Positions 11,777-30,906 of a stretch of 44,704 nucleotides of DNA are shown in pieces. The notes under the pieces are model-generated. The model worked only from the letters and a program-made list of their open reading frames with translations, was not told the origin of the DNA and did not search any database. The DNA is from Herbinix sp. (GTDB lineage Bacteria > Bacillota > Clostridia > Lachnospirales > Lachnospiraceae). The stretch is taken from the NCBI GenBank assembly GCA_029239235.1, contig JAQZBD010000021.1, forward strand, positions 1-44,704, in the 5' to 3' direction. The translations under genes and the position numbers were made by a program. Position 1 is the stretch's first letter. Each line of letters begins with the position of its first letter.

Positions 11777-12184
11777 TTAAGCTCGTTTTTCTTTCAATGC
11801 GAATCCTGCTATATATATTACTGCCGCAGCCAGAAAAAGAACAATTGTTGCTATAAAGGAGCCGGAAACGGAGCTTATATCAATCGCTCTTACAACCGCT
11901 ATGATATAATTGGCATTAACCGAAAGGAACTGAAAGATACAAATAATATACGCAACAAAAGGTATTACCTCCACAGTAGCCACCCTCTTTACGGAAAAGA
12001 TGATGTTGGTTGAAATTCCGATTGCCGCTATTACAAGCATTACGACAGAGTACTCCTCTGTAAATCCTGTAATAATTCCTGTTGTCAGATAAAGAACAAA
12101 GCCGATAATACCTAAAAACAATGCTCCTATACTACAATAAAATTTCTTACTATTTTCATTGATGCTATTTGTAATAATACTCAT
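11777..12184 (-). CDS. Small predicted multi-TM protein (about 4 TM)
   Basis: 135 aa, hydrophobic; same strand and directly downstream of the GH3 gene. Confidence 0.75.
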   Translation of the reverse strand: MSIITNSINENSKKFYCSIGALFLGIIGFVLYLTTGIITGFTEEYSVVMLVIAAIGISTNIIFSVKRVATVEVIPFVAYIICIFQFLSVNANYIIAVVRAIDISSVSGSFIATIVLFLAAAVIYIAGFALKEKRA

Positions 12185-12243
12185 GCTATACCTCCATAGA
12201 AATGATTTCTAAGGGGTGAAGCGGGACTTTCATCCCCCTTTCC

Positions 12244-15171
12244 CTATTTATATTTGCCCGGATGTTTTCTTTCATCCAACTGACGCACTATAACCCATAC
12301 AAACGCTAGTAAGCAAATAACACCTACAATAATATCCGCTGCAATTAATTTTATCATCCAAGGTGACATATCATAGTAAGCATATGCGCCAGGCATAACA
12401 TTATTATAAGCATTGCCGTTTACCACTACATAGCTGATATTATGAATGGCATTTCTCGCACTCCACTTTGCTGTAGGCGTTGAGAGATCAATCTCAGCTG
12501 CTGTCAGTCCCATCCAAAGATCATTACCGATGCGGTAACCTACATCCTTGCTCTTATAGGTGCCGCTTGTAAAGTCTGTCAGCACCATTCCTTCAAAGCC
12601 CCATTCGTCTCGCAGCAGCTTTGTCAGCATAGTATAGCTGTTGGTGGGGGATTCTGCCCCTACATAATTCATGGAGGTCATTATAGCACGGCAGGCATTT
12701 GCTTCAATCGTTTTAACTTCTCCTGCCTTAGTATCATAATATTTTTCAGTTCCGGTTGCATTTTTAACGCAGAGCTCAAAGGCCTTTAAGTAAAGCTGAC
12801 GGCTTGACTGCTCGTCAGCCCATACTGCCACGGTGGAACGGTTTTCATCTGTCTCATTGAGAGCAAAATGCTTCAGATAGGTTGTCAGTCCTCCCTCTGT
12901 AAAGGCTCCTGATACCACTGCACTGGCAATATAGCCCGTTAATACAGGGTCTTCTGAGTAGTACTCGAAGGTTCTTCCGCTGTAAGGAGTACGATGCAGG
13001 TTCAGGCCGGGTGCATACCAACCGTTTACATTGTTAGTCAAAGATTCAATTCCTACCATTTCACCCATTTTTTCTACTAGTTCTCTGTTCCAGGTAGCTG
13101 CCTGAACGCTTCCGCAGGGATAGCTGCACGCCGTTACTGGACTGGTTGTTGTACCGAATTGCTCTGCAAGCTCTGTATTTCCTCCCCAGGTTGCTGTCAG
13201 TCCGACAGTTCCGTCATGATCGGAGGTTTCTACTTTTCCGATGGCATCCACAGCCGCCGTCATATAAAGTCCTCTCGTAATCAGCTCCGGTATATCTGTA
13301 GAAGAATAATCCAGATTATCCAGAAGCTCATCCCACATGGGATCCTCAAAGGTGAGTCCACGCAGAGAACTTAACTGTATTCCATTGTCTGCCTTGTCCA
13401 CCGGTGCCTCATCATGGTAAAGAAGGCTGCCTTCCACTTCTCCCAGTTCTGAATCTGTTTTATAATCGAATTTTTGTATGTCTTTTACCACCTGTGTGGA
13501 AGCTGCCTTGGCAACCGGAGCTGCTGGGAAGGTTCCTGCGAAATCACTCCTTGATAGGATTGTCATATCATTTTCCACAGGATATTCATTCATTCCATCG
13601 AAAAGGTTTTGAGCCAACACCTCATCTGTGCTGCGCTTGCCCACTGCTTTTCCGCTCTTTGCAGTGTCTGCATACACAAGTGTTTCGTCCACCTTAACTA
13701 TTTCTGATCCCCATACATCATGAGAATCCTTTCCAAGGAAGATCTCATAGTCTCCTGCTTCCAGTACATAGGAGCCCTGATCAGAATACAGCTTCTGATA
13801 ATCGTAGGAAGCCATGTCCTCAACTGAAAACTCGATTGAAAATTCCTCTTTATCGCCTGCCTTAACCTTTACTTTAGTGAATTCTGCTAGTTCTTTCGCA
13901 GACTTCTCAATACCGCCCTTTGTATATGGCGCTCCATAATAAATCTGCACTACTTCGCTTACATCACGGGAAGATGCATTTGTTACGGTTCCCTTTACAG
14001 TGACTCTTCCGTCTTTCTCCTCGACGCTGTCCAAGGTCTGGGTCACCTTATCATCCTCATAGTTAAGTCCAAAACCAAAGGGGTAAACAACGGCGTTCTC
14101 ATAGCCCTTTGACTCTCCAAACACCGGGAAACTATTATCCTCCGCATATCTGGTCTCATAATAACGATAGCCTACATAAATTCCTTCTTCATATTCCAGA
14201 TAAGAGCTTGGTCCATCCTCCACTGCATTTATATAAGGTGTTGTAATTCTATTTACATAGGTTGGGTCTGATTTGAAATCCGCATACCACAAAGCGGAGG
14301 TTTTTCCGGAAGGATTCACCTCGCCGTCCAGGATTTTTGCCATTGCTTCAAAGCCAGTTGCTCCGGGAAGTCCGATCCACAAGATAGCATCTATCTGGTC
14401 ATCGGTCTGAAGTGAGACGATCTCTATGGGAGTTGCACAGCTTAGAACAACAATCACATTGCTGCAGTTTTCTTTTGCATATGCAATTGTGTTCTTTTCA
14501 TTTGCAGTAAGCTCCAACTGGGTTTCGGTTCCGTCGGAATAGGGAATTGCACTATTATAATCATAACCCTCCATACTGGGTCTGGCTATGAATACGATAC
14601 CGGTAGTATCCGCACAGCTTGCCTCGCTTCCCTGATAAATGTCTGCGTTATATTCTGAGAGGTTAGTACCCTCCTTGCTTTCGTCAACGATCATTGTTTC
14701 GGCTGTTGCGCCCTTCATTTTTTCCGCAACAGTGTTGTTTACCTCAAAAGCTTTCGTCAGCGCCTCCTCCGGGGTAACCACATAATCTGCTGAGGTATCC
14801 ACATTAGCAGAACCAGCTCCTCCGTAATACGGTGAAACATAGTGATATCCAAAAGGAGTTACCTTCGCACCCTGTGAAAGTGGCAATACATCCTCCTGAT
14901 TCTTCAGCAGGACTGCACCTTCCTCCACTACCTCCTGTGCTACCAGAGAGGCAGCAAGTCTGGACTCCTCCGGGGTCTTGTATTCCGTTTCATAAAACTG
15001 TGCATTTTCGGGCGCTGCTCCGTCCACATCTGCGACATGCCGCTCTCCTCTTCCTAATGCCCAATCCAAGGATGCCGTGTATACCATAGCCGTTTGCGTT
15101 ACGGTAACCATCAGCGCAATCAAGATTGCAACACTGGAAATAATTATTGTTCTGAATTTTGCATTTGACAT
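12244..15171 (-). CDS. Glycoside hydrolase family 3 protein, inverted domain order, N- and C-terminal TM
   Basis: GH3 C-type domain first (LVAQEVVEEGAVLLKNQEDVLPL...), Fn3-like (VTNASSRDVSEVVQIYYGAPY), then TIM-barrel part (LHRTPYSGRTFEYYSEDPVLTG, LKHFALNETDENR, GFEGMVLTDF). N-term IIISSVAILIALMVTVT and C-term LIAADIIVGVICLLAFVWVIV hydrophobic segments. Confidence 0.93.
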   Translation of the reverse strand: MSNAKFRTIIISSVAILIALMVTVTQTAMVYTASLDWALGRGERHVADVDGAAPENAQFYETEYKTPEESRLAASLVAQEVVEEGAVLLKNQEDVLPLSQGAKVTPFGYHYVSPYYGGAGSANVDTSADYVVTPEEALTKAFEVNNTVAEKMKGATAETMIVDESKEGTNLSEYNADIYQGSEASCADTTGIVFIARPSMEGYDYNSAIPYSDGTETQLELTANEKNTIAYAKENCSNVIVVLSCATPIEIVSLQTDDQIDAILWIGLPGATGFEAMAKILDGEVNPSGKTSALWYADFKSDPTYVNRITTPYINAVEDGPSSYLEYEEGIYVGYRYYETRYAEDNSFPVFGESKGYENAVVYPFGFGLNYEDDKVTQTLDSVEEKDGRVTVKGTVTNASSRDVSEVVQIYYGAPYTKGGIEKSAKELAEFTKVKVKAGDKEEFSIEFSVEDMASYDYQKLYSDQGSYVLEAGDYEIFLGKDSHDVWGSEIVKVDETLVYADTAKSGKAVGKRSTDEVLAQNLFDGMNEYPVENDMTILSRSDFAGTFPAAPVAKAASTQVVKDIQKFDYKTDSELGEVEGSLLYHDEAPVDKADNGIQLSSLRGLTFEDPMWDELLDNLDYSSTDIPELITRGLYMTAAVDAIGKVETSDHDGTVGLTATWGGNTELAEQFGTTTSPVTACSYPCGSVQAATWNRELVEKMGEMVGIESLTNNVNGWYAPGLNLHRTPYSGRTFEYYSEDPVLTGYIASAVVSGAFTEGGLTTYLKHFALNETDENRSTVAVWADEQSSRQLYLKAFELCVKNATGTEKYYDTKAGEVKTIEANACRAIMTSMNYVGAESPTNSYTMLTKLLRDEWGFEGMVLTDFTSGTYKSKDVGYRIGNDLWMGLTAAEIDLSTPTAKWSARNAIHNISYVVVNGNAYNNVMPGAYAYYDMSPWMIKLIAADIIVGVICLLAFVWVIVRQLDERKHPGKYK

Positions 15172-15200
15172 TTCATTCCTCTACCCTTCTCTTTTTCTTT

Positions 15201-15232
15201 AAGTTAAGGCCTAACTTATAGAAAGCATTATA
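15201..15232 (-). promoter_or_regulatory. Candidate promoter and operator upstream of the first GH3 gene (12244-15171)
   Basis: Minus strand TATAAT (15232-15227) followed by near-palindrome AAGTTAGGCCTTAACTT (15217-15201); -35 weak (TTAAAT with a 17-nt spacer). Confidence 0.4.
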
Positions 15233-15292
15233 GCTGGGGAGTGGTCAATATTTAAGAGACATCACGTATTCTTATTATTTTTAATCGTATCT

Positions 15293-18259
15293 TTACTTGT
15301 TATATTTATTATATTTTTCCGGAAACCTTCTTTCATCTCTCGTTCTCAGCAGAAGCAGCAGCGCTGTAAAAAGAGCAAGCACATAGGCCAGAAGTGTTAA
15401 TACCAACAAAACCACCTTCCAGGCCGGCATCGTATAATAGACCTGAGAACCTGGCATAACATTATTATATGCATTACTGTTCACTACAACATAGCTGATA
15501 TTATGGATGGCATTTCTTGCACACCACTTGGCTGTTGGCGTTGATAGATCAATTGGGACTGCTGTTATTCCCATCCAAAGATCGTTGCCGATCCGGTAGC
15601 CTATCTCCTTGCTCTTATAGGTTCCGCTTGTAAAATCCGTAAGCACCATGCCCCGGAAGCCCCATTCGCCGCGGAGCAGCTTGGTTAGCATTGCATAGCT
15701 GTTCGTTGGGGACTTCACACCTACATAATTCATGGAGGTCATGATAGCACGGCAGGCATTTACTTTAATTGTCCTGAGCTCTCCTGCTTCGGTATCATAA
15801 TAGGTTTCTGTTCCACTTGCACTTTTCACACAGATCTCGAAGGCTCTGAGGTAAAGCTGACGAAATACCTGCTCGTTGGCCCATACCGCAACGCTGGAGC
15901 GGTTTTCATCCGTCTCATTAAGGGCAAAATGCTTTAGGTAGGTCGTCAGCCCTCCCTGGGTAAAGGCTCCTGATACGACTGCACTCGCTATATAGCCCGT
16001 CAGTACCGGATCCTCGGAGTAGTACTCGAAGGTTCTTCCGCTGTAGGGGGTGCGGTGCAGATTAAGGCCAGGTGCATACCAGCCATTCACGTTATTGGTC
16101 AGGGCTTCACTGCCTACCATCGCTCCCATTCGTTCCACCAGCTCCCTGTTCCAGGTAGCAGACTGCACGCTTCCGCAGGGATAACTGCAGGTTATTACCT
16201 GGTTGGTTGTGATGCCATACTTTGCAGCAAGCTCTGCATTTCCTCCCCAGGTTGCTGTCAGACCAACCGTTCCGTCATGGTCTGAGGTCTCCACCTTCCC
16301 AATGGCTTCCACCGCCGCTGTCATGTACAGTCCCCTGGTAATCAGCTCCGATATGTCCTCTGAGGCATAATCCAGGTTGTCCAGCAATTCCTCCCACTTG
16401 GGATCATCATAAGTCAGCCCGCGCAGGGAGCTTAGCTGTATCCCGTTATCCGCTTTGCTTAACGGCTCCACATCCCGGTAAAGTAGACTGCCTTCCACTT
16501 CTCCTAGCTCGAAATCAGTCTTATAATTAAATTTATGGATATCTTGCAGCACCCGCATTGATGCAGCCTTTTCCTTCGGTGTCCCCGGGAAGGTTCCGGC
16601 AAAGTCACTTCTTGACATGGTCGTCATCCCATTCTCCGCCTGGTATTTATTCACATCCTCAAACAGGTTTTGAGCCGGCACCTGATCTGTGCTGCGCTTA
16701 CCTGCCGCTTTTCCGCTCTTTGCACTGTCAGCGTAAACCAATGTCTCCTTTACTGTAACCTGCTTTACTCCCCAAATATCATGAGAATCCTTGCTAAGAA
16801 AGATCTCATAGTCTCCTGCTTCCAGGACATAGGAGCCATTGCCCGAGTACAGCTTCCGGTAATCATAGGATGCCATGTCCTCTACTGAGAATTCAGCCGT
16901 AAAGACTTCACTTTCCCCTGCCTTCACCTTAACCTTGGTAAATTCCACAAGCTCCTTGACTGACTTCTCGATTCCGCCCTTCGTGTATGGTGCACCGTAA
17001 TAGATCTGTACGACCTCGCTCACGTCCCGGGAGGAGGCATTGGTTACAGTTCCCGTAACAATGATTCGTCCGTTCTTTTCTTTGACGCTGTTCAGAGTCT
17101 GGGTAATCATGGCATCCTCATAGTTGAGTCCAAAGCCGAAGGGGTACACCACTGCGTCCTCATAGTCCTTTGTTTCACCAAATACGGAGAAGCTGTTGTC
17201 CTCGGCATATCTGGTTTCATAGTACCGGTAACCTACATAGATCCCTTCCTCATACTCCAGGTAGCAGTTTGGTCCGTCCTCTGCTACATTAGTATAGTGG
17301 GTCGTGGTATGATTCACATAGGTGGGATCGGATTTAAAATCTGCATACCAGAGAGCAGAAGTTTTTCCGGATGGGTTTATCTCCCCGTCCAAGATCCTTG
17401 CCATTGCCTCAAAGCCCGTGCTTCCGGGAAGTCCGATCCACAGGATAGCATCGATTTCATCATCCTTTTGCAATGTAACGATCTCCATCGGTGTCGCGCA
17501 GCTGAGGATGACGATTACCTTACTGCAGTTTTCTTTTGCAAATGCAATTGTCCTCTTCTCATTCACCGTAAGCTCCAGCTGAGTTTCGGTTCCATCGGAA
17601 TAAGGAATCGTACTGTTATAGTCGTAGCCCTCCATGCTGGGTCTGGCGATGAAAACAATACCAGCGGTATCAACACAGCTCGCCTCACTCCCCTGATAAA
17701 TATCCGCATTATATTCCGAAAGACCAGTACCTTCCTTGCTTTCATCACACACCATTGTTTCAGGTGTGCCGGCCTTCAGTCTTTCCGTAACAGTGTCATT
17801 CACTTTGAAAACCTTCGTCAAAGCTTCTTCTGGAGAAATAATATAGTCTGCGGAGGTATCAACGTTAGCAGATCCCGTGCCTCCGTAAAAGGGCGAGACA
17901 TAACGATAACCGAAGGGAGTTACCTTTGAGTTTCGGGATAGGGGCAGCGCGTCATCCCTATTTTTTAACAGTACTGCACCCTCCTCCACTACCTCCTGTG
18001 CCACCAGCGAGGCTGCCAGCCTGGATTCCTCAGGAGTCTTATAGTTCGAACTATAAAACTGTGCCGTCTCGGCTGCTCCATCTACACTGGCAATTTGTCG
18101 CTTTCCCCTTCCAAAAACGGCATTAAAATAAGCTTCATATTCATTTGCTGCAATCGCTATAAATTGCATTGAAAGTACGAGAATTATAACCGGAGGGATT
18201 ACAAGAATTCTCAAATTGTGCCCGCTCATTTTCCTACGGTTCTTTCCATTCGCTTTCAT
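15293..18259 (-). CDS. Glycoside hydrolase family 3 protein, inverted domain order, N- and C-terminal TM (tandem paralog)
   Basis: Colinear, highly similar to the 12244-15171 product: EEGAVLLKNRDDALPL, SGRTFEYYSEDPVLTG, LKHFALNETDENR, GFRGMVLTDF; TM segments at both ends. Confidence 0.93.
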   Translation of the reverse strand: MKANGKNRRKMSGHNLRILVIPPVIILVLSMQFIAIAANEYEAYFNAVFGRGKRQIASVDGAAETAQFYSSNYKTPEESRLAASLVAQEVVEEGAVLLKNRDDALPLSRNSKVTPFGYRYVSPFYGGTGSANVDTSADYIISPEEALTKVFKVNDTVTERLKAGTPETMVCDESKEGTGLSEYNADIYQGSEASCVDTAGIVFIARPSMEGYDYNSTIPYSDGTETQLELTVNEKRTIAFAKENCSKVIVILSCATPMEIVTLQKDDEIDAILWIGLPGSTGFEAMARILDGEINPSGKTSALWYADFKSDPTYVNHTTTHYTNVAEDGPNCYLEYEEGIYVGYRYYETRYAEDNSFSVFGETKDYEDAVVYPFGFGLNYEDAMITQTLNSVKEKNGRIIVTGTVTNASSRDVSEVVQIYYGAPYTKGGIEKSVKELVEFTKVKVKAGESEVFTAEFSVEDMASYDYRKLYSGNGSYVLEAGDYEIFLSKDSHDIWGVKQVTVKETLVYADSAKSGKAAGKRSTDQVPAQNLFEDVNKYQAENGMTTMSRSDFAGTFPGTPKEKAASMRVLQDIHKFNYKTDFELGEVEGSLLYRDVEPLSKADNGIQLSSLRGLTYDDPKWEELLDNLDYASEDISELITRGLYMTAAVEAIGKVETSDHDGTVGLTATWGGNAELAAKYGITTNQVITCSYPCGSVQSATWNRELVERMGAMVGSEALTNNVNGWYAPGLNLHRTPYSGRTFEYYSEDPVLTGYIASAVVSGAFTQGGLTTYLKHFALNETDENRSSVAVWANEQVFRQLYLRAFEICVKSASGTETYYDTEAGELRTIKVNACRAIMTSMNYVGVKSPTNSYAMLTKLLRGEWGFRGMVLTDFTSGTYKSKEIGYRIGNDLWMGITAVPIDLSTPTAKWCARNAIHNISYVVVNSNAYNNVMPGSQVYYTMPAWKVVLLVLTLLAYVLALFTALLLLLRTRDERRFPEKYNKYNK

Positions 18260-18283
18260 AATAAATAAAATACCTTCCCTGCT

Positions 18284-19642
18284 TTAGCTTACATTGGTTT
18301 CAACCGAGGCTCTTCTTTCCTGGTGCGGAAAAAAAATATCAAGTGTAAATACATTTTCCTCTGTTGTAACAGAAAGATATCCCTCATATTTATCAACGAC
18401 CCGTTGGATACTTTTCATACCAAAGCCATGGTAATCCTTATTACCCTTCGTAGTCTGCGGCAGTCCGTTATCAAATTCAAGCTCAGCCTGGTAATAGTTA
18501 TACAGACTGATATCCACTCTATCCTGCTTTTGCTTAACTGTAAGATTAACAACCCTCATATCCTCCTCCAGCTGCATCACCGCCTCAATCGCATTATCCA
18601 CGGCATTGCCAAACAGAGTATAGATATCTATCTCATCCATGAACTCCAGACTTTTCCCATCTGCAATGCAAGATAATTCAATATGATTCGTATTGCACGA
18701 CAAGCTTTTTTCCGTCAGAATAATATCCAGAGTCTTATTTCCTGTCTGTACACTGGAATCATAAATAGAAATCACCTTTTCTATCTCCGTACAAGCCTGC
18801 TGGCTTATATCGGCATTTTCTCCGATCTCACGGATCAGATGCTTCAAATCATGACACTTCAAATTAATTAAATCTATGTTTTCCCTTTTCATCTCTAGCT
18901 GCTTTTTTCCCTGGTTCCACATCAGGTATACCACCCCAAGTTCATCCTTAAGCTGCTTTTGCATCAGCAGTCCGAATTGAATCGACAAGGTAAGACCGCA
19001 GCACAAAAGATTATAGATATGCCCTGCTAATACATAGAATTTGTCATAGGAGCCCTGCGCATAATAAATAATTGCTGCGTTAATAAAGATATCAACTACA
19101 AGGATCAGGAACACCAAAACCAAAAGGATACCTGTTCGAATATGCAGATCTTCATTCTTTTTTATGCGATTTGCAAAAAATAAAAACATCAGCCAATATA
19201 CGAGGGCATAACTATCCACATACACCACCGCTGCAAAAGGTGATATCCCCCACCCCTCTGAACTAATAGTCGCACTGTACATCCCAAGGGTCAGCCCATG
19301 ATCCAATCCCGTAAGTATCAGCGCCAAAAGACTGACTCCATAAGCAATATGCTGTACCGTATAAGCCGCAATGGAGCAAAAGATGATATTCCTCCAGGAT
19401 TCATTAAAGCAGCTCTTCATTACAGCCGTTACAAATACGAATATCATCAGGAACATAAAGGAGGCATAGACCGCATTGTAAAACAGTATGGGAAAAATCC
19501 ATACAAATCCATAGCAAAGCAAATTTCCCGCTATAAAGCGCGGCCAGAAATTCGGTTTCTTCTTCAGCCTCATTAAAAACAGCCATTCCGATATAAGAAG
19601 CTCTGTCAGAAATAAAAATTTATATGCAAATAAAGGTGCCAT
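18284..19642 (-). CDS. AgrC-like sensor histidine kinase (polytopic, GHKL ATPase)
   Basis: Several TM helices then CHDLKHLIREI (H box), LFGNAVDNAIEAVM (N box), GFGMKSIQRVVDKYEG (G box). Start refined to MAPLFAYKF with GGAGG upstream inside the response regulator end. Confidence 0.92.
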   Translation of the reverse strand: MAPLFAYKFLFLTELLISEWLFLMRLKKKPNFWPRFIAGNLLCYGFVWIFPILFYNAVYASFMFLMIFVFVTAVMKSCFNESWRNIIFCSIAAYTVQHIAYGVSLLALILTGLDHGLTLGMYSATISSEGWGISPFAAVVYVDSYALVYWLMFLFFANRIKKNEDLHIRTGILLVLVFLILVVDIFINAAIIYYAQGSYDKFYVLAGHIYNLLCCGLTLSIQFGLLMQKQLKDELGVVYLMWNQGKKQLEMKRENIDLINLKCHDLKHLIREIGENADISQQACTEIEKVISIYDSSVQTGNKTLDIILTEKSLSCNTNHIELSCIADGKSLEFMDEIDIYTLFGNAVDNAIEAVMQLEEDMRVVNLTVKQKQDRVDISLYNYYQAELEFDNGLPQTTKGNKDYHGFGMKSIQRVVDKYEGYLSVTTEENVFTLDIFFPHQERRASVETNVS

Positions 19643-19643
19643 T

Positions 19644-20351
19644 TTAAATACCTCCACCCACATATTTATTCAATGCACCGAGAAAGGTCTTCTTTTTGGG
19701 ATGAGAAATCTGCAACTCGTTTCCTCCCACGACTGCAATCCAACCGCTGACCTTTGATACAAATTTCAGATTAACAAGATAACAGCTGTTACAGCGTACA
19801 AAGTGCTTGTCAAACAGCTGCTCCTCTACTTTTTTCAAAGTTCCGTAGCCTTCGTAATCGCCGCTTTTCGTATGGTAAATCAACCGATGATTAGAAACCT
19901 CTATGTACTTTAAACTTGCCGTATCAATGAAGATAACCCCGTCCTGTGTTCGGATCAGAATTTCCCTCTCTTTGTTATTCTCAAGCCTGGAGATTGCCTT
20001 CTGTAGCTTCAGTGCTACATTAGGATAGGCCACAGGCTTTACAATAAAGCTCATGGCATCCACCTCATAGCCCTTTACAGCAAACTGGGACATGTTGGTC
20101 ACAAAAATAAGAATGACCGTTTGATCTATCTCCCTAAGCCTTGCCGCTGCTTCCATTCCGTCCATATGCGGCATTCCTATATCCATAAATACGATATCAT
20201 ACTTCGTCTTATAATTATCTAAGAATATAATTGCATTCTTAAACACCTCAATTGAAAATGTTACATTTTTCTCTTCTGCGTACCTCGTTAAGTATTTTTG
20301 CAGTAAATCCGCTGAAATCTTCTCATCCTCAACAATTGCAACACTAAACAT
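19644..20351 (-). CDS. LytTR-family response regulator (AgrA-like)
   Basis: MFSVAIVEDEKISADLL, IVFMDIGMPHMDGMEAA receiver; C-terminal LytTR domain (FIDTASLKYIEVSNHRLIYHTKSGDYEGYGTLKKVEEQL..FVRCNSCYLVNLKFV). Start refined; GGAGGG upstream. Confidence 0.93.
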   Translation of the reverse strand: MFSVAIVEDEKISADLLQKYLTRYAEEKNVTFSIEVFKNAIIFLDNYKTKYDIVFMDIGMPHMDGMEAAARLREIDQTVILIFVTNMSQFAVKGYEVDAMSFIVKPVAYPNVALKLQKAISRLENNKEREILIRTQDGVIFIDTASLKYIEVSNHRLIYHTKSGDYEGYGTLKKVEEQLFDKHFVRCNSCYLVNLKFVSKVSGWIAVVGGNELQISHPKKKTFLGALNKYVGGGI

Positions 20352-20786
20352 ACATATTCCCTCCATATGTACCGCTGACAATATCTTTTTCTCCTCCGGT
20401 AACCAGACCAAAAACCGACTCGGACTATAAATATTAGCTGACCGTGTTTTAGGTAGGAAAATGTTAACTCCGATATCTCGTTTGAATCAATATTGGATAA
20501 AAAACAGATAAAAAACACAGACGTCCGTTCATTCTTCTCCATTTTTAATATAAAGCCCCGTTGGAATAAAGAAACTTTTCTGCTGTGTTTATTATACTAG
20601 CCGATATAATGAAATACTTCTGATTTTAAGAATACAACATATTTTCCCTTGTCTCGCACCACTAAATATGCCTTATTATACATGATTGTGTCATATCTCG
20701 CAACCTTTAAAGCATAATGCTTGTTTTCAGTACAAAATCCAGGAGATTTTAGTTTAATATACCTATAACTAACCAAAAAAATACGG

Positions 20787-20816
20787 TTGTCAATCACTTG
20801 ACAACCGTATCATTAA
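20787..20816 (-). terminator. Terminator of the SASP gene
   Basis: ATACGGTTGTCA-atcact-TGACAACCGTAT perfect 12-bp stem followed by T-run on the minus strand. Confidence 0.9.
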
Positions 20817-20831
20817 TCTTACCTTACTTTA

Positions 20832-21032
20832 TTATTTGCCTGCCATTCTGTTTTCATAATCTGCGATCATTTTCTTAACCATATAACCGCCTACAGAACC
20901 ATTCTGTTTCGAAGTTAAATCACCATTATAACCTTGTTTTAAAGGTACACCAATTTCATTGGCAACTTCATACTTAAAACGATTTAATGCTTCCTTTGCT
21001 TCTGGAACTTCTGCTCTGTTTCTACTTGACAT
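20832..21032 (-). CDS. Alpha/beta-type small acid-soluble spore protein
   Basis: AKEALNRFKYEVANEIGVPLKQGYNGDLTSKQNGSVGGYMVKKMI. Confidence 0.95.
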   Translation of the reverse strand: MSSRNRAEVPEAKEALNRFKYEVANEIGVPLKQGYNGDLTSKQNGSVGGYMVKKMIADYENRMAGK

Positions 21033-22971: not shown

Positions 22972-24303
22972 TTATTCATATTTAATTACAACATCAGCGG
23001 TTGCAACATTTCCCGCTTCATCAGTTGCTTTAATCGTAATCTGGCAGTCATTGGCCTCACCGCCAATAATGCTTGCCTCCAGTTTAATATCTTTGGTGAA
23101 TGAATAATTATCAATAACTGTTACAGCGTCTAGGACACTGCTCTCATCCGGAATCTCTCCAGCCATTAAAGTCAACTCAGGAACCGATAAAATATCCGGT
23201 GCTAAATTATCAATCATTAACTCAGCATGCATCTCTCCAAGAACCTTTTTATTTCTCAGCACCTGATAGTTCAAGAAATAATAATCCTCTTCCACCTTCT
23301 CAATTACTACAGTAATATTTGCCGGGTCTATTTTTTTACCCCTTTGATAGGCTTCTACCCCTTCAAGGGCAAAATCTGTTGTTATCATATCCTTATCTTT
23401 AACTACTCTATCTCGTATTCCTTTGAATTCAACCGGAGTATTACTTTCCTCTACCGTAACCAGGATAGTTTTATCAGAAATCAAGCCGAGGGCATCCTTT
23501 ACGGTGTATGTAATTCTATATTTGCCGGGCACTTCGTAATTAACCTCACCCTCCACCTTCACCGATTTTGTTATATTGGTGCCAGTGGCAGATACGGCGG
23601 TGATACCCTTCAGAAGATTGACCTTCTCACCCTGTATAACCGTTAAATTTTTTGCGCCTTTAATCTCTGGTATTTTTTTATTAAATGGATTTTTCGGATC
23701 CGGATCCGTAGGATCCCAACCATTTGCTTTCGTAATCTTTATTGCCTCCGGTTTTCCTAACGGCCCCGGATTCTTCTTATCATCATAAATAACAACGGTG
23801 GTGCCTACACCACAATGATCATAAATCCATTTAGCATCTGCAACTGATATCCTGATGCACCCATGGGATGCTGCTGATCCCAATTTATTATATTGCTTGG
23901 TAGACAAGGAGGCCGGATTATTATTTTCATAATAGTAGACGGAATGAAATAAGATTCCTCCTACAATTCGGGTAGCATATTGTCCATATACATCCCCCAT
24001 TAGTAGTTTCCAACGATATTTCGCTTTTGTTTGAAAGGTTCCGGTGATGGTTCGGTTGCCTGTCCCAACAGAACATACCATTGCTTTGACAGGAATCGTA
24101 TACGCACCTTTTTTATCTTTTTCATAAATTGTTATTGTATTGTATGCCCGATTTACCTTAATCAGATATGCTTGCTCAGCTGCTGCTACAGGCTGTTTAC
24201 CGACCGCGAGTAATAATAGGAAAACAACAAGGGTGACAAATAAATTCTTCCGTTGAAATAACCTTTTGTAAAATCTGTTCATAACAAATCTCCGTTCCGC
24301 CAC
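22972..24303 (-). CDS. L,D-transpeptidase (YkuD) with C-terminal Ig-like/DUF5011-type domains
   Basis: HSVYYYE...LGSAASHGCIRISVADAKWIYDH (YkuD HxxxS HGCIR), then beta-rich repeats ending IKATDEAGNVATADVVIKYE; signal anchor. Confidence 0.9.
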   Translation of the reverse strand: MAERRFVMNRFYKRLFQRKNLFVTLVVFLLLLAVGKQPVAAAEQAYLIKVNRAYNTITIYEKDKKGAYTIPVKAMVCSVGTGNRTITGTFQTKAKYRWKLLMGDVYGQYATRIVGGILFHSVYYYENNNPASLSTKQYNKLGSAASHGCIRISVADAKWIYDHCGVGTTVVIYDDKKNPGPLGKPEAIKITKANGWDPTDPDPKNPFNKKIPEIKGAKNLTVIQGEKVNLLKGITAVSATGTNITKSVKVEGEVNYEVPGKYRITYTVKDALGLISDKTILVTVEESNTPVEFKGIRDRVVKDKDMITTDFALEGVEAYQRGKKIDPANITVVIEKVEEDYYFLNYQVLRNKKVLGEMHAELMIDNLAPDILSVPELTLMAGEIPDESSVLDAVTVIDNYSFTKDIKLEASIIGGEANDCQITIKATDEAGNVATADVVIKYE

Positions 24304-24383
24304 TTATTTCGTGACTTCATTATGCAAGATATTCTGTCGTTTATGCTTATTGCTAAGCATTTTTTCCGTTTCGTCTTTCATAA

Positions 24384-26786
24384 CTACTTTATCCGAAGGA
24401 TGTAGGTTTCATAGTCTTTGGTTTCATTCATTGGACTTAGAAAAACAACTTTCCCCAGTCTCTTTAGCATCTCATGGTTCATCGTCGTATATTTATCCTG
24501 CTCCAGCTTCCCAACATAGATGTAGGAGACATTATATTTTTCCAGTAATGTTCTTACATAAGCTTCATCAGAAGAAGTATATATTTTCTCAATATCCGAG
24601 GTTCTTGCATCCAGAAGTGATGTATCACCCTTCCAGAGCCATTCATGGGTATGCCAGCCCAGTATGGTAGGCAGCCCGGTCATAACCGATACTCTTTCAT
24701 AATCTGTATAGCTATCCCCCGGTGCTTCAAGAACCACCGGCATTCCTGACACGTTCTTATTTAGCCAGTCAATAGCCAGATCATCGTCCGGCATGGTCGT
24801 TTCCATAAATTCAGTCGCATCGATACCTTTATACTCCGATACTTTGAAGATATTCCCATACCAGGAATTCACTGCATTTTGAATGTAGCATATGGTCAAA
24901 AGGAATAAAAGCATTACAACTGCAGCAACCTTCTTCTGTCTTTTTGTAGTTCCGAATCGAAGCAGTCGCAGCAATATATATCCAAAGACAATTCCAAACA
25001 TGATAAATGCCTGATAGGTAAGCTTAAACATTGTATTTGCTCTTTTATAGTCCCCTGAGTAAATATCCTGAACATAAACCACCTCTGGAATCAAAACCAG
25101 GCCAATGGCACATAGTCCAATTGTAATAATAAATAAATCTGAGGTTGTTAAATTCTTGGATAAATCCGTTAGCTTTATCTCAAAAGTTCGCTTTGCTTTG
25201 CGTGTTTCTGTATCGGTTTGAACAACTTGCGACCTTTGAGCTTCTTGCTGTACCTGTAGGTTAATCTCTGCTGCATATTCTATCATTTGCCTTTTGTGGA
25301 TATCCGATATAATAAAGCAAAGAAAAGCAATCACCGCAAAGATAGGCAGTCCCCACAAAATGATAAGCTGATTGAGTGGTGTGTGGGCTACGGAAAGGCA
25401 TATATTGGTGGATATCTGATCAAACCTCAGCGTAAAAGGCAGCGCCACTATTTCCGATGCACAAAAAATAAAAATCCCCTGAAGCACCGTTAATACAAAG
25501 ACCGTCTTTACTCTAAAATGATTTACGATCAGATTTGTAAATAAAATTATCGCACCGGATACAACAAAATAAATGGGGAAATCCCAAAAATTCGTTGTAT
25601 GGAACAAACCAATAAAGAATGCTACCAACAGGAAGGCGGGATTAATAATATCCTTCCAAAAGGGCACATCCCTTCTTTTCTGAGCTCTGCGATAACACAT
25701 CCAGGCAAATAATATACCCAGTACTGTCAGTACAAATATAATATTAATAACATGGGCATGGAGATCCCCTAATACAAAGGAATATGCCGGAAACTCATGT
25801 ATCGTTTTATCATTTGTCTCAGGATGATATCCAATAAATCTGGTTGCGTCCGGAAACCAGTAATCGTCTGTACTTGCTTCCATTCCAAAAAACTTACGCA
25901 CCCAGGATTCAAACCATTGATAAGTAGGATAATGCATATTTCCTGCAAAGACAACAGCTGCTCCCCCAAGCAAGCCACTCGTGATGGGAATCCATTTTCC
26001 TTGCTTCTCTCGCTCCTGCATATAATGAACTACAATATTATAAATCAGTGAATAGCAAAGCACAAAGGAAAGAGCACCGACCATCATAAGCATTAGGTTA
26101 TATCCGTGAAAAACCTTTACAAAGGATAACTTTGTCAAAAAGGTCGCCAGATATTGTCCTACATAATAGTAATTCAAACTCGTACCGGAGAACCAGAAAT
26201 CCTGAGGAGGCATGTATTCACTGCGCATCATACTGGTCATGAAGCCATAATCCATAAATTTCTCAGTACCATATGCCTCAGGCTTAAATCCTCTGATATA
26301 AACAAATAGCAAGAATAAACCAAAGAATAAAAGCTCTTCACCCAATATGGTATCCAATAGCTTTTCTAATGATATAAAACTTTCCTCACGATTAACACTC
26401 TTTACAAGTTCATTCTTTTGATAGTTTTTACGTAAAACCAGAATTATTCCATTTGCAATAAGACCAATACCAGCACAGATGATACAGGACAGTGCTGTGA
26501 ATTTCAGTATATGCAAGGAGGACAAAAACCACATCACGTAGCCTGTGATCGCCAAGCCTATTGGTTTGGAAAACAGATATCCTTTGTCATGGAATCGGCC
26601 AAATACTAAAGTTGTTATCGGTAAAAAGATAATTCCAATACAGGTAATTGTGATCCACCACTGCAGAAACGGAGTAAAGTCTGACTGCAACAGTATATTC
26701 CCTATGACAATTAATATGATTGTAATTAACAAATAAATGGCTTTTTTTAGCATAATAATCCCCACTCGTCCTGTAATTATTTTCAA
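24384..26786 (-). CDS. DUF2298 'YYY' membrane protein (putative GT-C-like transferase)
   Basis: Polytopic; FSGTSLNYYYVGQYLATFL and HEFPAYSFVLGDLHAHVINI motifs. Confidence 0.85.
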   Translation of the reverse strand: MKIITGRVGIIMLKKAIYLLITIILIVIGNILLQSDFTPFLQWWITITCIGIIFLPITTLVFGRFHDKGYLFSKPIGLAITGYVMWFLSSLHILKFTALSCIICAGIGLIANGIILVLRKNYQKNELVKSVNREESFISLEKLLDTILGEELLFFGLFLLFVYIRGFKPEAYGTEKFMDYGFMTSMMRSEYMPPQDFWFSGTSLNYYYVGQYLATFLTKLSFVKVFHGYNLMLMMVGALSFVLCYSLIYNIVVHYMQEREKQGKWIPITSGLLGGAAVVFAGNMHYPTYQWFESWVRKFFGMEASTDDYWFPDATRFIGYHPETNDKTIHEFPAYSFVLGDLHAHVINIIFVLTVLGILFAWMCYRRAQKRRDVPFWKDIINPAFLLVAFFIGLFHTTNFWDFPIYFVVSGAIILFTNLIVNHFRVKTVFVLTVLQGIFIFCASEIVALPFTLRFDQISTNICLSVAHTPLNQLIILWGLPIFAVIAFLCFIISDIHKRQMIEYAAEINLQVQQEAQRSQVVQTDTETRKAKRTFEIKLTDLSKNLTTSDLFIITIGLCAIGLVLIPEVVYVQDIYSGDYKRANTMFKLTYQAFIMFGIVFGYILLRLLRFGTTKRQKKVAAVVMLLFLLTICYIQNAVNSWYGNIFKVSEYKGIDATEFMETTMPDDDLAIDWLNKNVSGMPVVLEAPGDSYTDYERVSVMTGLPTILGWHTHEWLWKGDTSLLDARTSDIEKIYTSSDEAYVRTLLEKYNVSYIYVGKLEQDKYTTMNHEMLKRLGKVVFLSPMNETKDYETYILRIK

Positions 26787-26805
26787 ATGAGTCCAAATTC
26801 GTAGT

Positions 26806-27513
26806 TTAGCTTAAACTTTGATTAATCCTTCTAAAGTCTGTCCAAGCTTGCTTTCCGATTTTTACAATTCGTTTCATATTGATGGAATTAACACCGCCCT
26901 GCCTTTTACGGAAGGTAACCGGAAGATATTTCACGGATAGATTTTTCTTAGCATAAATAACTGCTATCATTACATTGGAAAGATTAAAATTATCCGGTAT
27001 TAAATTGATATACTGCTTTAACACCTCGGTTTTCATTAAACGAAAAGGTGTATTTGCATCTGCTAAGCTAACCCCGAAGCTGATGCGTAAAACTAGCTTT
27101 AGAATTTTCGTAACGAAAATACGGGATAATCCATCCTGACGCTTCTTTCGATTACCAATTACCATATCGTAGTTATTTCGAATATTCCAAAACGGCCAAA
27201 ATTCAAAAGGAATTGTCTGTCCATCTGAATCTGTCTGAAAAATATAATCTGCCCCAGCTTCTATCGCATATCGATAGCCATACAATAAAGTCGCTCCATG
27301 TCCGCTGTTTGGCTTTGTGATAGGCTCAAAAGCCGGAAGATTCTTAGCCATATCCTGCAGGATCGAAAAAGTGGAATCTTTACTTCCATCATCAATCATG
27401 ATAAGCTTGCTTCCATTTCCAATCTGCTCAACAATTGGATACCAGTCCTTTATTACGTTAACGACATTGGCCTCTTCATTATATGCAGGTATTATAACGT
27501 ATAACTTATCCAA
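26806..27513 (-). CDS. Glycosyltransferase family 2 (polyprenyl-phosphate sugar synthase-like)
   Basis: MDKLYVIIPAYNEEANV, MIDDGSKDSTF, GYRYAIEAGADYIFQTDSDGQ. Confidence 0.92.
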   Translation of the reverse strand: MDKLYVIIPAYNEEANVVNVIKDWYPIVEQIGNGSKLIMIDDGSKDSTFSILQDMAKNLPAFEPITKPNSGHGATLLYGYRYAIEAGADYIFQTDSDGQTIPFEFWPFWNIRNNYDMVIGNRKKRQDGLSRIFVTKILKLVLRISFGVSLADANTPFRLMKTEVLKQYINLIPDNFNLSNVMIAVIYAKKNLSVKYLPVTFRKRQGGVNSINMKRIVKIGKQAWTDFRRINQSLS

Positions 27514-27549
27514 CTAAATACCCTCCATTTCTCCTTCATAGTGCTTAAC

Positions 27550-30500
27550 TTATCTTAGGGCTTCGAAGGCATCTAATGCCCTTCTTACAACTGCGTCCAT
27601 ATTATAATAACGATATTCTGCAAGTCTTCCGATAAAGATTACCTTGCTTTCCTTCTTCATTTCCTCTTCATATAGCGCAAATTGATCTTTATACTCCTTT
27701 GTAGGGAATGGATAATAAGGCTCACCCTCTGCACTTGGAAATTCTTTGCCGATGGTAGTTTTCTTATGATCCTGCCAGGTCAGCTTCTTATATTCTGTTA
27801 TTCTGGTAAAATCATAATCATTCGGATAGTTTACTACGGGTGCTTCCTGATATTCCTCTTGATCAAAGGTTTCAAATACAAAATTAACACTACGGTATGC
27901 CATTTTACCATGCTTAAAGTTATAGAATTCATCCGTTGCTCCGGTATAAATCAACGTATCATACTTAATATCCTGAATCACTTCATTATAGTCCGTATTC
28001 AGCAGTATCTTGATATTCTTATTTTCAACCATATGCTCACACATCTTCGTGTAACCACGCTTTGGCATACCTTGATATTTATCCGCAAAATATCTGGTAT
28101 CACGATTTAAACGAATTGGAATTCTGGAGATTACTGAGGTATCCAGCTCACTCGGGTCAATTCCCCATTGCTTTCTCGTATAACTCTCAAATATTTTCTC
28201 ATAAATATCCTTACCAACCTTACTTAAGGCAACGTCCTTGCTGGTTCTAATCTCATCGATTTGTACTGCCTGTTTTTTTAAGAACTCTTCTACCTGTGAG
28301 CAGTCCAGATTCAGGTTATATAGCTTATTAATTGTTTCAACCGTGATTGGCATCGGCACAAGATTACCATCCACATATGTTAAAACTCTATGCCAGAAAT
28401 CATTCCATTTTGTAAATCGGGATAGATATTTATATACTCCCTGGTCATTGGTATGGAAAATATGTGGTCCGTAATTGTGAATCAGAATTCCATCCTCATT
28501 GTAGGAATCATAAACATTACCGCCAATATGATTCCTTTTTTCTATTACTAATACCTTCTCATTTAATTCATTAGCAATTCGTTCCGCCATGGTTAATCCA
28601 GCTAGTCCAGCACCTACTATTACGTATTTGTATTCCATCTCTATTCTCCTTTGGTTTAGTGTATTCGGCAATTGCGAAACCATATAGTTCGTGAATTTTT
28701 CATACACTTGGTACAAATTCCTTCGCTTCATGCTGTACTCGCCTTCCCCCTCATAGTATACACATTTATAAGTGGCTTTTATGTTTTCCTCATTAACAAC
28801 ATAATCCTGACTATTCCGATTGTCCGAATCTATTATAATAAATCGGATTTGGTTCTCTTTTACAAGTTCATCTAACCCCTCTGAGGTGGACGATTCATAC
28901 ATTAGCTTAACCTGAGCAGTACGATAATCCGTATCATATCCTGCTGACCAGGGAAAGTACTGCCATCCCTCATATAACATAGCTCCCCCAAGAACAACCT
29001 GATTCACTGCATAATTAGACGACAAAAACAGATCCTTGGAATCACTATTTTCATCAACCCAATCGGTAATCGGATCCTTTAAACTCAGGACTACCGAAGT
29101 TGAGGGTGTATTCTTCTTTAAGACAGTAATGAAATCATATATGCCCGTTGCTGTTAAACATATGATCAACATGACACCAATTAAATTCAGAAGGATGTCC
29201 CTCTTACTAAATAATCTGGTCACCAGTAAGGCTGCAAAAATCCCAAGGAGAATGCAACTTATCATGATATACTTATGATTCACTGTCACATCTACCGTAA
29301 GTGATAAGGTAAATGCAAAGATTAGTGGTGCTGTAAATGCAAGGATAAGAAAACGTCCTACTCCTTTTTCCAGGCAAAAGGCCACTAACAATACAAAGGG
29401 CAGAATACCAAGCAAACGATCCAAATAAGAGGCAACTCCAAAAATTGTTTTATTCTCGGCAATAAAGCCAAAAAACAGCTTAGTCGATACCACCGATCCA
29501 TCAACAAAAAATTGAGACTGTAGCATTGTCAGCGCTAAAGTAATGAATGCTACAACTATAAAATCACTGCGGTGTTTAGAGAGAATGGCAATAACAAATA
29601 GCATTGCTAAGCACCCAATGACCGCTGCACCATGAAAAAATCCCAAGCTTCCTAATAATATACCTATGGCTACCGCCCTTTTCAAATCCTTATATCTCCA
29701 GGCATCCATCGTGAAAAAAATTTCACGAATCCAATTCCATGTTTTTTGCTGCCAGCTTTGCTTCTCCTCTGCCGAATCAGGCTTATTCAAGCTATACTTT
29801 TTCAATGCCTCAAACATCTCATATAAATAAGGCAACATCAATATAATGACAAGAAGGATTACCGTTAATCCAAAAGCAAGATGCCTTTGATTACAATAGA
29901 CATTCAGATTCCATAAGCCCCAATCCTCATTGGGTGTATCCGATAGAAAAGCTGTGTTATCCCTTAATGCCTGCAAAATTCCGGTTCCTTCAGGTAATTC
30001 AGAAAGATACGTAAACAAGGTCTTCGCACTTCGAAATGCAAAGAACAAACAGGATAAAACTCCCGCACATAGCTTACCGGTGATTTTGACAGCTAAAACA
30101 TACAGCAGGGAAAACGCACTAACAAAGCTGAGGATACTTGGAATATTAAAGGCATAATCCAGACGCATACCAAGATACTCCAGATTACCGACCAGAAATT
30201 GAAACATAAAATGATATTTAATATCTTCCCCTCCAAAATGAGCATAAGTGGTGGGAAAGTTATTTCCATGGGAAAAGGAGCGGATCATACCAATATGAGG
30301 AGAAAAATCACTGAATACCGACACTCCGATATAAAGCTGATCGCCAGAAACAAAGAACGTTACCCACATTAGGATACTGCCTAATAAGACAATTGCAGCA
30401 ATTAGAATCAGTTCCAATATGACTGTTTTCCTATCCTCTGCCACTAAGGATACCCGGTCCTGCTTCAAGACCTTCTCTCTTCTCATGATTCCAACTACCG

Positions 30501-30807
30501 CTATAGCTGCAGCAATGGGCATCACAATCCAATTTGCCGGTTTCAGTGGTTCTGCTGTCCCTCCGAACAGATAAGCAATCAAATAGGTTGTCCAGGTCAC
30601 CACCAGCGTTCCGGTAACAAACCATGCCGGAAGGAGTATCAGAAAGGGACTTAAGCGTATTGTTCTATTTTCGTAATCTTTTTCTACTATTCCACTAAGA
30701 CCGGGAAACGCATAAGTACAGATTACCCAGCCTACCAAAAAACATAGTATCAGATAAACAATTCCAATCATATAAATGCCCATGACCAATACCGCACAAA
30801 ATGCCAT
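27550..30807 (-). CDS. Fusion ORF: polytopic membrane protein (N-terminal ~720 aa) + UDP-galactopyranose mutase (C-terminal 362 aa, 27550-28638)
   Basis: C-terminal MEYKYVIVGAGLAGLTMAERIANELNEKVLVIEKRNHIGGNVYDSYNEDGILIHNYGPHIFHTND...GRLAEYRYYNMDAVVRRALD is UGM (glf-like). N-terminal part has many TM helices. An SD AAAGGAG sits about 7 nt before the internal ATG (28638). Confidence 0.9.
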   Translation of the reverse strand: MAFCAVLVMGIYMIGIVYLILCFLVGWVICTYAFPGLSGIVEKDYENRTIRLSPFLILLPAWFVTGTLVVTWTTYLIAYLFGGTAEPLKPANWIVMPIAAAIAVVGIMRREKVLKQDRVSLVAEDRKTVILELILIAAIVLLGSILMWVTFFVSGDQLYIGVSVFSDFSPHIGMIRSFSHGNNFPTTYAHFGGEDIKYHFMFQFLVGNLEYLGMRLDYAFNIPSILSFVSAFSLLYVLAVKITGKLCAGVLSCLFFAFRSAKTLFTYLSELPEGTGILQALRDNTAFLSDTPNEDWGLWNLNVYCNQRHLAFGLTVILLVIILMLPYLYEMFEALKKYSLNKPDSAEEKQSWQQKTWNWIREIFFTMDAWRYKDLKRAVAIGILLGSLGFFHGAAVIGCLAMLFVIAILSKHRSDFIVVAFITLALTMLQSQFFVDGSVVSTKLFFGFIAENKTIFGVASYLDRLLGILPFVLLVAFCLEKGVGRFLILAFTAPLIFAFTLSLTVDVTVNHKYIMISCILLGIFAALLVTRLFSKRDILLNLIGVMLIICLTATGIYDFITVLKKNTPSTSVVLSLKDPITDWVDENSDSKDLFLSSNYAVNQVVLGGAMLYEGWQYFPWSAGYDTDYRTAQVKLMYESSTSEGLDELVKENQIRFIIIDSDNRNSQDYVVNEENIKATYKCVYYEGEGEYSMKRRNLYQVYEKFTNYMVSQLPNTLNQRRIEMEYKYVIVGAGLAGLTMAERIANELNEKVLVIEKRNHIGGNVYDSYNEDGILIHNYGPHIFHTNDQGVYKYLSRFTKWNDFWHRVLTYVDGNLVPMPITVETINKLYNLNLDCSQVEEFLKKQAVQIDEIRTSKDVALSKVGKDIYEKIFESYTRKQWGIDPSELDTSVISRIPIRLNRDTRYFADKYQGMPKRGYTKMCEHMVENKNIKILLNTDYNEVIQDIKYDTLIYTGATDEFYNFKHGKMAYRSVNFVFETFDQEEYQEAPVVNYPNDYDFTRITEYKKLTWQDHKKTTIGKEFPSAEGEPYYPFPTKEYKDQFALYEEEMKKESKVIFIGRLAEYRYYNMDAVVRRALDAFEALR

Positions 30808-30906
30808 GAAAGTGTGGGATGGGCTCGACCCCTCCTTTGCTCTATATTTTTACTTTTTTCAACCTTCCTCCGAGTCAATTCCATCAAACCTATACCTGAA
30901 TGTAAA

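Follow-up and report, generated by a model that had tools for sequence, protein, structure and literature searches.

A compact unit encoding a LytTR response regulator (RR), a polytopic GHKL histidine kinase (HK), two GH3 glycoside hydrolases with a membrane anchor at each end (GH3a and GH3b) and a small four-helix membrane protein (4TM) was analysed in the window, a stretch of 44,704 nucleotides from Herbinix sp. (contig JAQZBD010000021.1). Since the regulator, the kinase and the double-anchored GH3 recur together across the Bacillota and the Actinomycetota, the module looks like a real and mostly undescribed system that senses and trims surface glycans, in support of the surface-glycan unit linked to a two-component system (TCS) that an earlier note on this DNA had hypothesised.

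Organisation of the locus

The five genes lie on the minus strand (20351–11777) in the order RR(LytTR)–HK(GHKL)–GH3–GH3–4TM with short gaps between them (Table 1), an arrangement noted before and confirmed here by the open reading frames (ORFs) and the Pfam domains. HK and RR overlap by 20 nt, and the gaps HK–GH3a, GH3a–GH3b and GH3b–4TM measure 24, 121 and 59 nt, respectively. On its upstream side the unit is closed off by a strong terminator-like hairpin (20811-20780) and a spore-protein gene, and on its downstream side by rsmD.

Table 1. Features of the kinase–GH3 unit, numbered by position in the window
Feature	Position	Strand	Evidence
LytTR response regulator (RR)	19644..20351	-	Pfam Response_reg 4e-18, LytTR 2e-14; ATG at 20351, GGAGGG RBS upstream
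Polytopic GHKL histidine kinase (HK), GH3-linked clade	18284..19663	-	HATPase_c_5 1e-25
GH3a, permuted GH3, anchor at both ends	15293..18259	-	GH3_C, Fn3-like, GH3_N; helices 18-36, 949-967
GH3b, permuted GH3, anchor at both ends	12244..15171	-	GH3_C, Fn3-like, GH3_N; helices 6-24, 943-961
Small 4-TM protein, dedicated GH3 partner family	11777..12184	-	Four helices by hydropathy; family context
Candidate sigma-70-type promoter, RR-HK operon	20675..20703	-	TTGCGA-17-TATAAT; consensus match only
Terminator-like hairpin, separates unit from upstream spore-protein gene	20780..20811	-	14-pair stem, then T run
Possible weak tandem repeat TAAAGATACG N11 TAAGAATACG, 21 bp apart	15266..15295	-	~95-124 bp upstream of GH3b; too imperfect for significance alone

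Double-anchored GH3 enzymes

GH3a and GH3b are 77% identical, which points, as judged from their sequences, to a recent tandem duplication. Both show the permuted order GH3_C, Fn3-like, GH3_N (Pfam); the domain swap claimed in the earlier note is thereby confirmed, but it is not new, being that of the GlyA1-type GH3 subfamily. GlyA1 is a GH3 with a permuted domain topology (PDB 5K6L-5K6O; PMC5104943), and the same order of (alpha/beta)6, FnIII and barrel is shared by GlyA1, the P. barengoltzii beta-glucosidase (5WUG) and BrGH3A (PMC11233000). The nearest solved folds of the AlphaFold2 model of GH3b (mean pLDDT 90.4) are 5K6M, 5K6O and 5WUG (Foldseek; alignment of ~910 columns).

One strong hydrophobic helix is present at each end of both enzymes by hydropathy, the absence of such helices having been named beforehand as grounds for rejecting the hypothesis, and the GH3b model has terminal helices at 3-30 and 937-969. 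The charge pattern is positive-inside at both ends across the family, which supports the proposal that the enzymes are held extracellularly between two anchors. The acid/base and the nucleophile of GH3b are E201 and D866; these two residues, along with D653, R733, K767, H768 and R778, are kept in 87 of 87 double-anchored GH3s, and the idea of a pseudo-enzyme was therefore rejected. The likeness to GlyA1 extends to most of the subsite -1 residues, whereas Tyr-677 of GlyA1 is replaced by Phe or Met and its stacking Trp-710 by Phe or Tyr in most double-anchored members. The membrane helix at each end and the TCS and 4TM neighbours further distinguish the double-anchored enzymes from the GlyA1-type GH3s, and the word 'transmembrane' was not found by text search in the papers on GlyA1 (PMC5104943) and BrGH3A (PMC11233000).

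Recurrence of the module and its membrane partners

The combination of RR, HK and double-anchored GH3 was found in Lachnospiraceae, Oscillospiraceae and other Clostridia (Bacillota), and also in Coriobacteriales, Demequina, Cellulomonas, Microbacterium, Schaalia and Alloscardovia; the genome from which the window derives carries several such modules and seven members of the kinase clade. Culturable relatives with the module include Mediterraneibacter glycyrrhizinilyticus and Butyrivibrio proteoclasticus. In a reverse test starting from the kinase, a GH3 of the double-anchored type was present in 28 of the 40 clade loci and another GH3 in 2 more, compared with none near the 20 less related control kinases, so that the conservation of the RR-HK-GH3 neighbourhood in relatives, whose failure had been named as grounds for abandoning the hypothesis, is borne out. 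Six of the 10 clade loci lacking a GH3 end at a contig end, while for four clade kinases (L170, L182, L196 and L198) the sequence retrieved contains no GH3 and is not cut beside them by a contig end. Both GHKL and GH3 genes abound in the genomes concerned, and a regulator class and an enzyme class that are each so frequent could in principle lie close together by chance, but this explanation is refuted by the reverse test (30/40 vs 0/20) and is further opposed by the spread of the linkage over two phyla and by the strict association of the 4TM family described below, which leave it a negligible probability.

Agreement between the trees of HK and GH3 is only weak (r 0.20 overall and 0.03 when compared within genomes), whereas those of HK and RR agree (0.77); tight recognition between HK and GH3 is thus not indicated, and a specific partnership of the two gained no support from this mirror-tree test.

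All 17 members of the 4TM family found in 250 Lachnospiraceae genomes adjoin a double-anchored GH3, which substantiates the earlier inclusion of the small membrane protein as a real component of the unit, and in relatives the 4TM gene often overlaps the GH3 stop codon. Many relatives also carry a GH3-dedicated GtrA-like protein, of a subfamily found beside GH3 in 25 of 27 cases, together with a cytosolic GH3 of canonical order that retains the beta-glucosidase signature. The 4TM and the GtrA-like proteins are dedicated rather than incidental neighbours. The 4TM protein has no match in Pfam/NCBIfam and no structural relative in the PDB, and its assignment as a GtrA was rejected by profile comparison.

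Relationship to Agr systems

A LytTR regulator and a polytopic GHKL kinase constitute the domain set of Agr systems, and Pfam detects both in the unit; the resemblance to peptide quorum systems that had been noted stops at this domain class. No AgrB domain was detected in the ORFs of 60 aa and above adjoining the unit, in agreement with the absence of agrB remarked upon earlier, and the AgrB genes of the genome sit on two other contigs, C195 and C82, at a distance from every GH3 module; the unit is therefore not an Agr system. An Agr-like quorum-sensing system whose peptide genes have been lost or are hidden would explain the domain set, but the location of the AgrB genes, the low similarity (only 45 bits) of the window HK to the kinase that lies close to AgrB on C195, and the lack of conserved Cys or His in the 4TM family render it highly improbable. 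Agr-type LytTR/GHKL systems share with the module the regulator and kinase domain classes and, as seen in relatives, operator-like half-sites in tandem at a spacing of roughly two helical turns, whereas the module lacks AgrB, has a kinase of a different clade and is linked to a glycosidase.

Operator-like repeats

Tandem 9-bp repeats 20–22 bp apart, resembling LytTR operators, are enriched upstream of double-anchored GH3s (19 of 55, against 4.1+-2.3 in shuffles) but not of RR genes (1 of 50) or other genes (31 of 290); the spacing had been picked after hits were seen in the same data, with other genes and other spacings serving as a subsequent check. The textbook LytTR consensus showed no overall enrichment in a scan of all upstream regions; the ACAGTTT pair and the spacing test were looked for after the top hits of that scan had been seen. 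The pair ACAGTTT-20 bp-ACAGTTT occurs nine times in the scanned loci, eight of them 76-125 bp upstream of a double-anchored GH3, of which seven come from one related group, and the tandem site ACAGTTTATGC lies upstream of GH3 in L039/L109-type loci. A clear operator is absent from the window, where the single weak candidate (Table 1) fits the operator-like repeats of the relatives in its position.

Probable function of the module

It is probable, in our judgement, that the genes form a self-contained module for surface-glycan sensing and trimming, in which a dedicated TCS would govern a surface exo-glycosidase tethered to the membrane, together with its 4TM partner. The earlier note had suggested that the kinase may respond to a GH3 product or to the 4TM protein. 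The clade-specific kinase would sense a signal located at the membrane or outside it and, as expected from its family, pass phosphate to the LytTR regulator, which may act on the promoters of double-anchored GH3s through the tandem half-sites 20-22 bp apart detected statistically in relatives. The GH3, catalytically complete and with a helix at each end, would serve as a retaining exo-glycosidase on the external side of the membrane, and the 4TM protein, consistently associated with it, is probably an accessory membrane subunit; the GtrA-like protein and the cytosolic canonical-order GH3 complete the set in many relatives. The substrate would be either a dietary or host glycoside or an envelope glycan of the cell itself.

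A glycoside hydrolase and a regulator, as in Gram-positive polysaccharide utilisation loci, are both present in the window unit (Pfam), and ordinary dietary-glycan utilisation, in which a beta-glucosidase or similar exo-glycosidase at the cell surface would be subject to carbohydrate control and the small membrane neighbours would be incidental, is a credible reading though not the one we would expect to hold. In Butyrivibrio proteoclasticus, Kelly et al. 2010 (PMC2914790) place each of the three LytTR regulators close to secreted GH3s that end in a C-terminal TM helix, within the polysaccharide utilisation loci PUL7, 21 and 33, which is the same pairing of LytTR regulator and TM-tailed GH3 and favours dietary use, as do carbohydrate genes near several of the loci examined here. 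However, no sugar-transporter domain was detected in the genes scanned beside the window unit, the 4TM and GtrA-like proteins are not incidental, and the neighbours beyond the core are heterogeneous, a Pfam tally of catabolic and envelope roles around the modules and the control kinases being mixed. The statement of Kelly et al. covers one genome in one sentence, which mentions neither an N-terminal anchor nor a 4TM partner, and no clade of kinases, GtrA-like protein, operator or spread across phyla. The permuted GH3 fold (GlyA1) and the LytTR–GH3 link in one Butyrivibrio genome (2010) are already known, while the breadth, the double anchor, the 4TM partner and the operator signature appear to be undescribed.

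Envelope-glycan remodelling, in which the GH3 would trim or transfer sugars on the lipid-linked or wall glycans of the cell and the TCS would report the state of the envelope, seems unlikely to be the main role. It is favoured by the location of both GH3 ends at the membrane, by the recurrence of GtrA-like (23 loci), GT2 (23) and UDP-galactopyranose mutase (9) genes in cassettes of Actinomycetota and some Bacillota, and by GT2 genes and a mutase-containing fusion within ~10 kb upstream in the window, although the loci of the closest relatives (L039-L041) yielded no member of the mutase cluster. Against it, several Bacillota modules adjoin catabolic genes (GH2, GH43, GH78, fucose isomerase, FGGY kinase, sugar transporter), and a beta-glucosidase signature is preserved in the cytosolic partner GH3s. 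The GtrA-like and GT2 genes of the relatives' cassettes recall the GtrA/GtrB-type polyprenyl-phosphate sugar systems, but no transferase was identified as a third component; unlike GtrA/GtrB/GtrC, the window unit has a GH3 in place of a GtrA-like, GT2 and transferase cassette. A bolder proposal, which we regard as rather improbable, is that GH3 and 4TM form a membrane complex acting on lipid-linked or envelope glycans at the membrane face by hydrolysis or transglycosylation, with its action or product read by the dedicated kinase clade, as glycosidase-coupled signalling over the Bacillota and the Actinomycetota.

To our knowledge, most LytTR/GHKL systems outside classical quorum sensing have had no signal assigned to them. 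In the present case an entire clade of kinases is linked with a single type of enzyme, a single small membrane partner and an operator-like signature, and therefore offers defined genes, mutants and promoters with which a signal can be sought. Double-anchored GH3s have multiplied within genomes (nine in that of the window, of which one is truncated at a contig end). This suggests that Actinomycetota and gut Bacillota possess a substantial, unstudied function involving surface glycans, and such enzymes are easily annotated as plain beta-glucosidases.

Organisation of the five-gene unit

The five genes represent a conserved and modular glycosidase system, membrane-tethered and linked to a two-component system. 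They lie on one strand in the order that the earlier note had proposed, namely response regulator (RR), histidine kinase (HK), two GH3 proteins (GH3a and GH3b) and a small four-helix protein (4TM). Pfam searches assign Response_reg and LytTR domains to the RR, HATPase_c_5 to the HK and the domain order GH3_C, Fn3-like, GH3_N to both GH3 proteins, which are 77% identical; the 135-residue 4TM protein has no Pfam family match, and NCBIfam added nothing specific. Upstream the unit is bordered by a spore-protein gene together with a terminator-like hairpin, and downstream by rsmD; judging by the spore-protein gene, the organism probably forms spores.

Features of the unit, its surroundings and the AgrB genes of the same genome
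Feature	Position	Strand	Content
RR	window 19644-20351	minus	Response_reg, LytTR
HK	window 18284-19663	minus	HATPase_c_5
GH3a	window 15293-18259	minus	permuted GH3
GH3b	window 12244-15171	minus	permuted GH3
4TM	window 11777-12184	minus	four-helix protein
Spore-protein gene	window 20832-21032	minus	alpha/beta-type small acid-soluble spore protein
Weak repeat upstream of GH3b	window 15295–15266
Probable envelope-glycan locus	window 22972-31911	minus	L,D-transpeptidase with Ig-like domain, DUF2298 membrane protein, two GT2s, 1085-aa fusion
AgrB	contig C195, 24740-26598
AgrB	contig C82, 50260-50832

The fold is already known and the LytTR–GH3 association has been noted once: Kelly et al. (2010, PMC2914790) reported that the three LytTR regulators of Butyrivibrio proteoclasticus each lie near a secreted GH3 bearing a transmembrane helix at its C-terminus. 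The architecture and the partners are largely undescribed, a full-text literature search, with most subscription papers outside its scope, having returned no further description of the system.

Recurrence of the kinase–GH3 association

Nine GH3s of the double-anchored type were identified in the genome itself, two in the window and one each on contigs C274, C312, C234, C231, C285, C106 and C186, the last cut by the contig end. The genome encodes seven kinases of the GH3-linked subfamily (clade kinases), the next-best kinase scoring 45 bits against the window HK; five of the seven are close to a double-anchored GH3 on the same contig and the other two (C106, C279) sit at the end of their contigs. 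When one genome per species was scanned, at least 79 loci were recovered. Besides Lachnospiraceae and further Clostridia, they come from Coriobacteriales, many Actinomycetes and a single Erysipelotrichaceae genome, and most of those with enough flank have an RR and an HK gene paired no more than a few kb from the double-anchored GH3.

The reverse search started from the kinase in 150 genomes of the window's family. HMMs derived from the loci collected first were then applied to the regions around 40 clade kinases and, as controls, 20 kinases with lower scores. A double-anchored-type GH3, in some cases truncated where the fetched stretch ends, was present in 28 of the 40 clade loci, and another GH3 in two more (L192, L201). 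Six of the ten GH3-less loci are at contig ends (L147, L167, L185, L186, L187, L190), and L170, L182, L196 and L198 gave no GH3 match in the fetched surroundings; none of the 20 control loci had one. Conservation of the neighbourhood, one of the checks named in the earlier note, is borne out from both directions.

The HK and RR trees correlate well (r 0.77), but those of HK and GH3 only weakly (r 0.20; 0.03 when compared within genomes), which gives no indication that each kinase is tuned to its own GH3. This pattern suits a kinase whose signal is not the GH3 protein as such; the GH3 gene would instead be the target, presumably under direct control of the RR. The suggested resemblance to Agr systems holds at the level of domains but goes no further. 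The two AgrB genes of the genome lie on other contigs, and the kinase located ~440 nt away from the one on C195 reaches no more than 45 bits against the window HK. The latter AgrB and its distant GHKL kinase are likely to constitute a separate Agr-type system.

Double-anchored GH3 enzymes

One strong hydrophobic helix was found at each end of both GH3 proteins, as the earlier note describes. GH3b was modelled with AlphaFold2 from 49 sequences at a mean pLDDT of 90.4, and the model shows long helices at residues 3–30 and 937–969. Charges flanking the end helices fit the proposed extracellular enzyme held between two anchors, with both tails predicted to be inside. Of 87 double-anchored GH3s, 76 have exactly one helix at each end, ten have one extra N-terminal helix and one has two extra; the GH3s of L109, L110, L115 and L132 carry a long N-terminal extension with an additional hydrophobic helix ahead of the usual anchor. 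The closest folds to the window GH3 model (Foldseek) are the permuted enzymes 5K6M, 5K6O and 5WUG, over ~910 columns.

E201 (acid/base), D866 (nucleophile), D653, R733, K767, H768 and R778 (GH3b numbering) are invariant in the 87 proteins and correspond, by motif rather than by superposed coordinates, to Glu-143, Asp-709, Asp-532, Arg-597, Lys-630, His-631 and Arg-641 of GlyA1, a known permuted GH3 (PMC5104943). The sugar-pocket position of GlyA1 Tyr-677 is mostly Phe (Met in the window) and that of the stacking Trp-710 mostly Phe or Tyr, while Tyr and Trp are both retained in the cytosolic, canonical-order GH3s from these neighbourhoods. Judged from these residues, the double-anchored enzymes should be active, since the catalytic positions are invariant, and perhaps have a shifted specificity, as two pocket positions differ.

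Repeats upstream of the GH3 genes

No overall enrichment was seen when the loci were scanned with the textbook LytTR consensus; its best matches pointed to pairs of ACAGTTT. Nine such pairs 20 bp apart occur in 3.9 Mb of loci (both strands), and eight lie 76–125 bp ahead of a double-anchored GH3; seven of the eight belong to a single related group and the eighth to L039, which is the nearest relative of the window module. A consensus-free search of the 160 bp upstream of each gene, for 9-mers recurring at a spacing of 20–22 bp with no more than one mismatch, found repeats ahead of 19 of 55 GH3s (non-redundant intergenic regions), compared with 4.1±2.3 in shuffles, and ahead of 3 of 55 at each of two other spacing ranges. 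The corresponding counts were 1/50 for RRs, 4/28 for cytosolic GH3s and 31/290 for other genes (shuffle mean 25.6). The enrichment is strong evidence, although not independent, the spacing having been chosen after seeing matches in the same data. In the window, GH3a probably shares the RR promoter, since only 24 nt separate it from the HK, and GH3b is preceded by only a weak repeat.

Partner proteins

Of the proteins encoded directly behind the GH3 in relatives, two sequence groups align with each other (profile-profile probability 95.5, E 1.5e-8). A search of 250 genomes of the window's family with their combined 4TM profile yielded 17 full-length matches (E ≤3e-5), all directly beside a double-anchored-type GH3, a count not wholly independent because some of the loci supplied the profile; matches new to the search (e.g. 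L227–L232) show the same adjacency. The gene, a dedicated partner of these GH3s, usually overlaps or abuts the GH3 stop codon and in one case lies directly upstream, and its product may form a complex with the enzyme. A structure model (pLDDT 77) had no relative in the PDB. A GtrA-like identity was considered and rejected, as the profile of that different four-helix family does not align with the 4TM groups. In L092, L094, L096, L102, L104 and L116, a single-helix small protein (~140-208 aa; no Pfam match for that of L092) replaces 4TM directly behind the GH3.

A GtrA-like subfamily is itself directly beside a GH3 in 25 of 27 examined loci of relatives. Canonical-order GH3s of ~800 aa, mostly with no predicted membrane helix, recur in relatives, GT2s occur in 23 loci and UDP-galactopyranose mutase in nine; some Bacillota loci also contain GH2, GH43, GH78, a sugar transporter, fucose isomerase or FGGY kinase, and the remaining neighbours are of mixed Pfam content in the tally. 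The GT2s of L075, L081, L082, L083, L087, L089, L090 and L097 are ~510-580 aa long where no separate GtrA-like gene was called, which suggests putative GT2-GtrA fusions. L052, L064 and L091 carry, besides the upstream RR–HK pair, a second LytTR-type regulator downstream of the GH3 without a kinase of its own. In the probable envelope-glycan locus of the window, one of the two GT2s appears GtrB/CsbB-like by eye, and the 1085-residue protein joins a polytopic N-terminal part to a UDP-galactopyranose mutase domain, a fusion that looks unusual.
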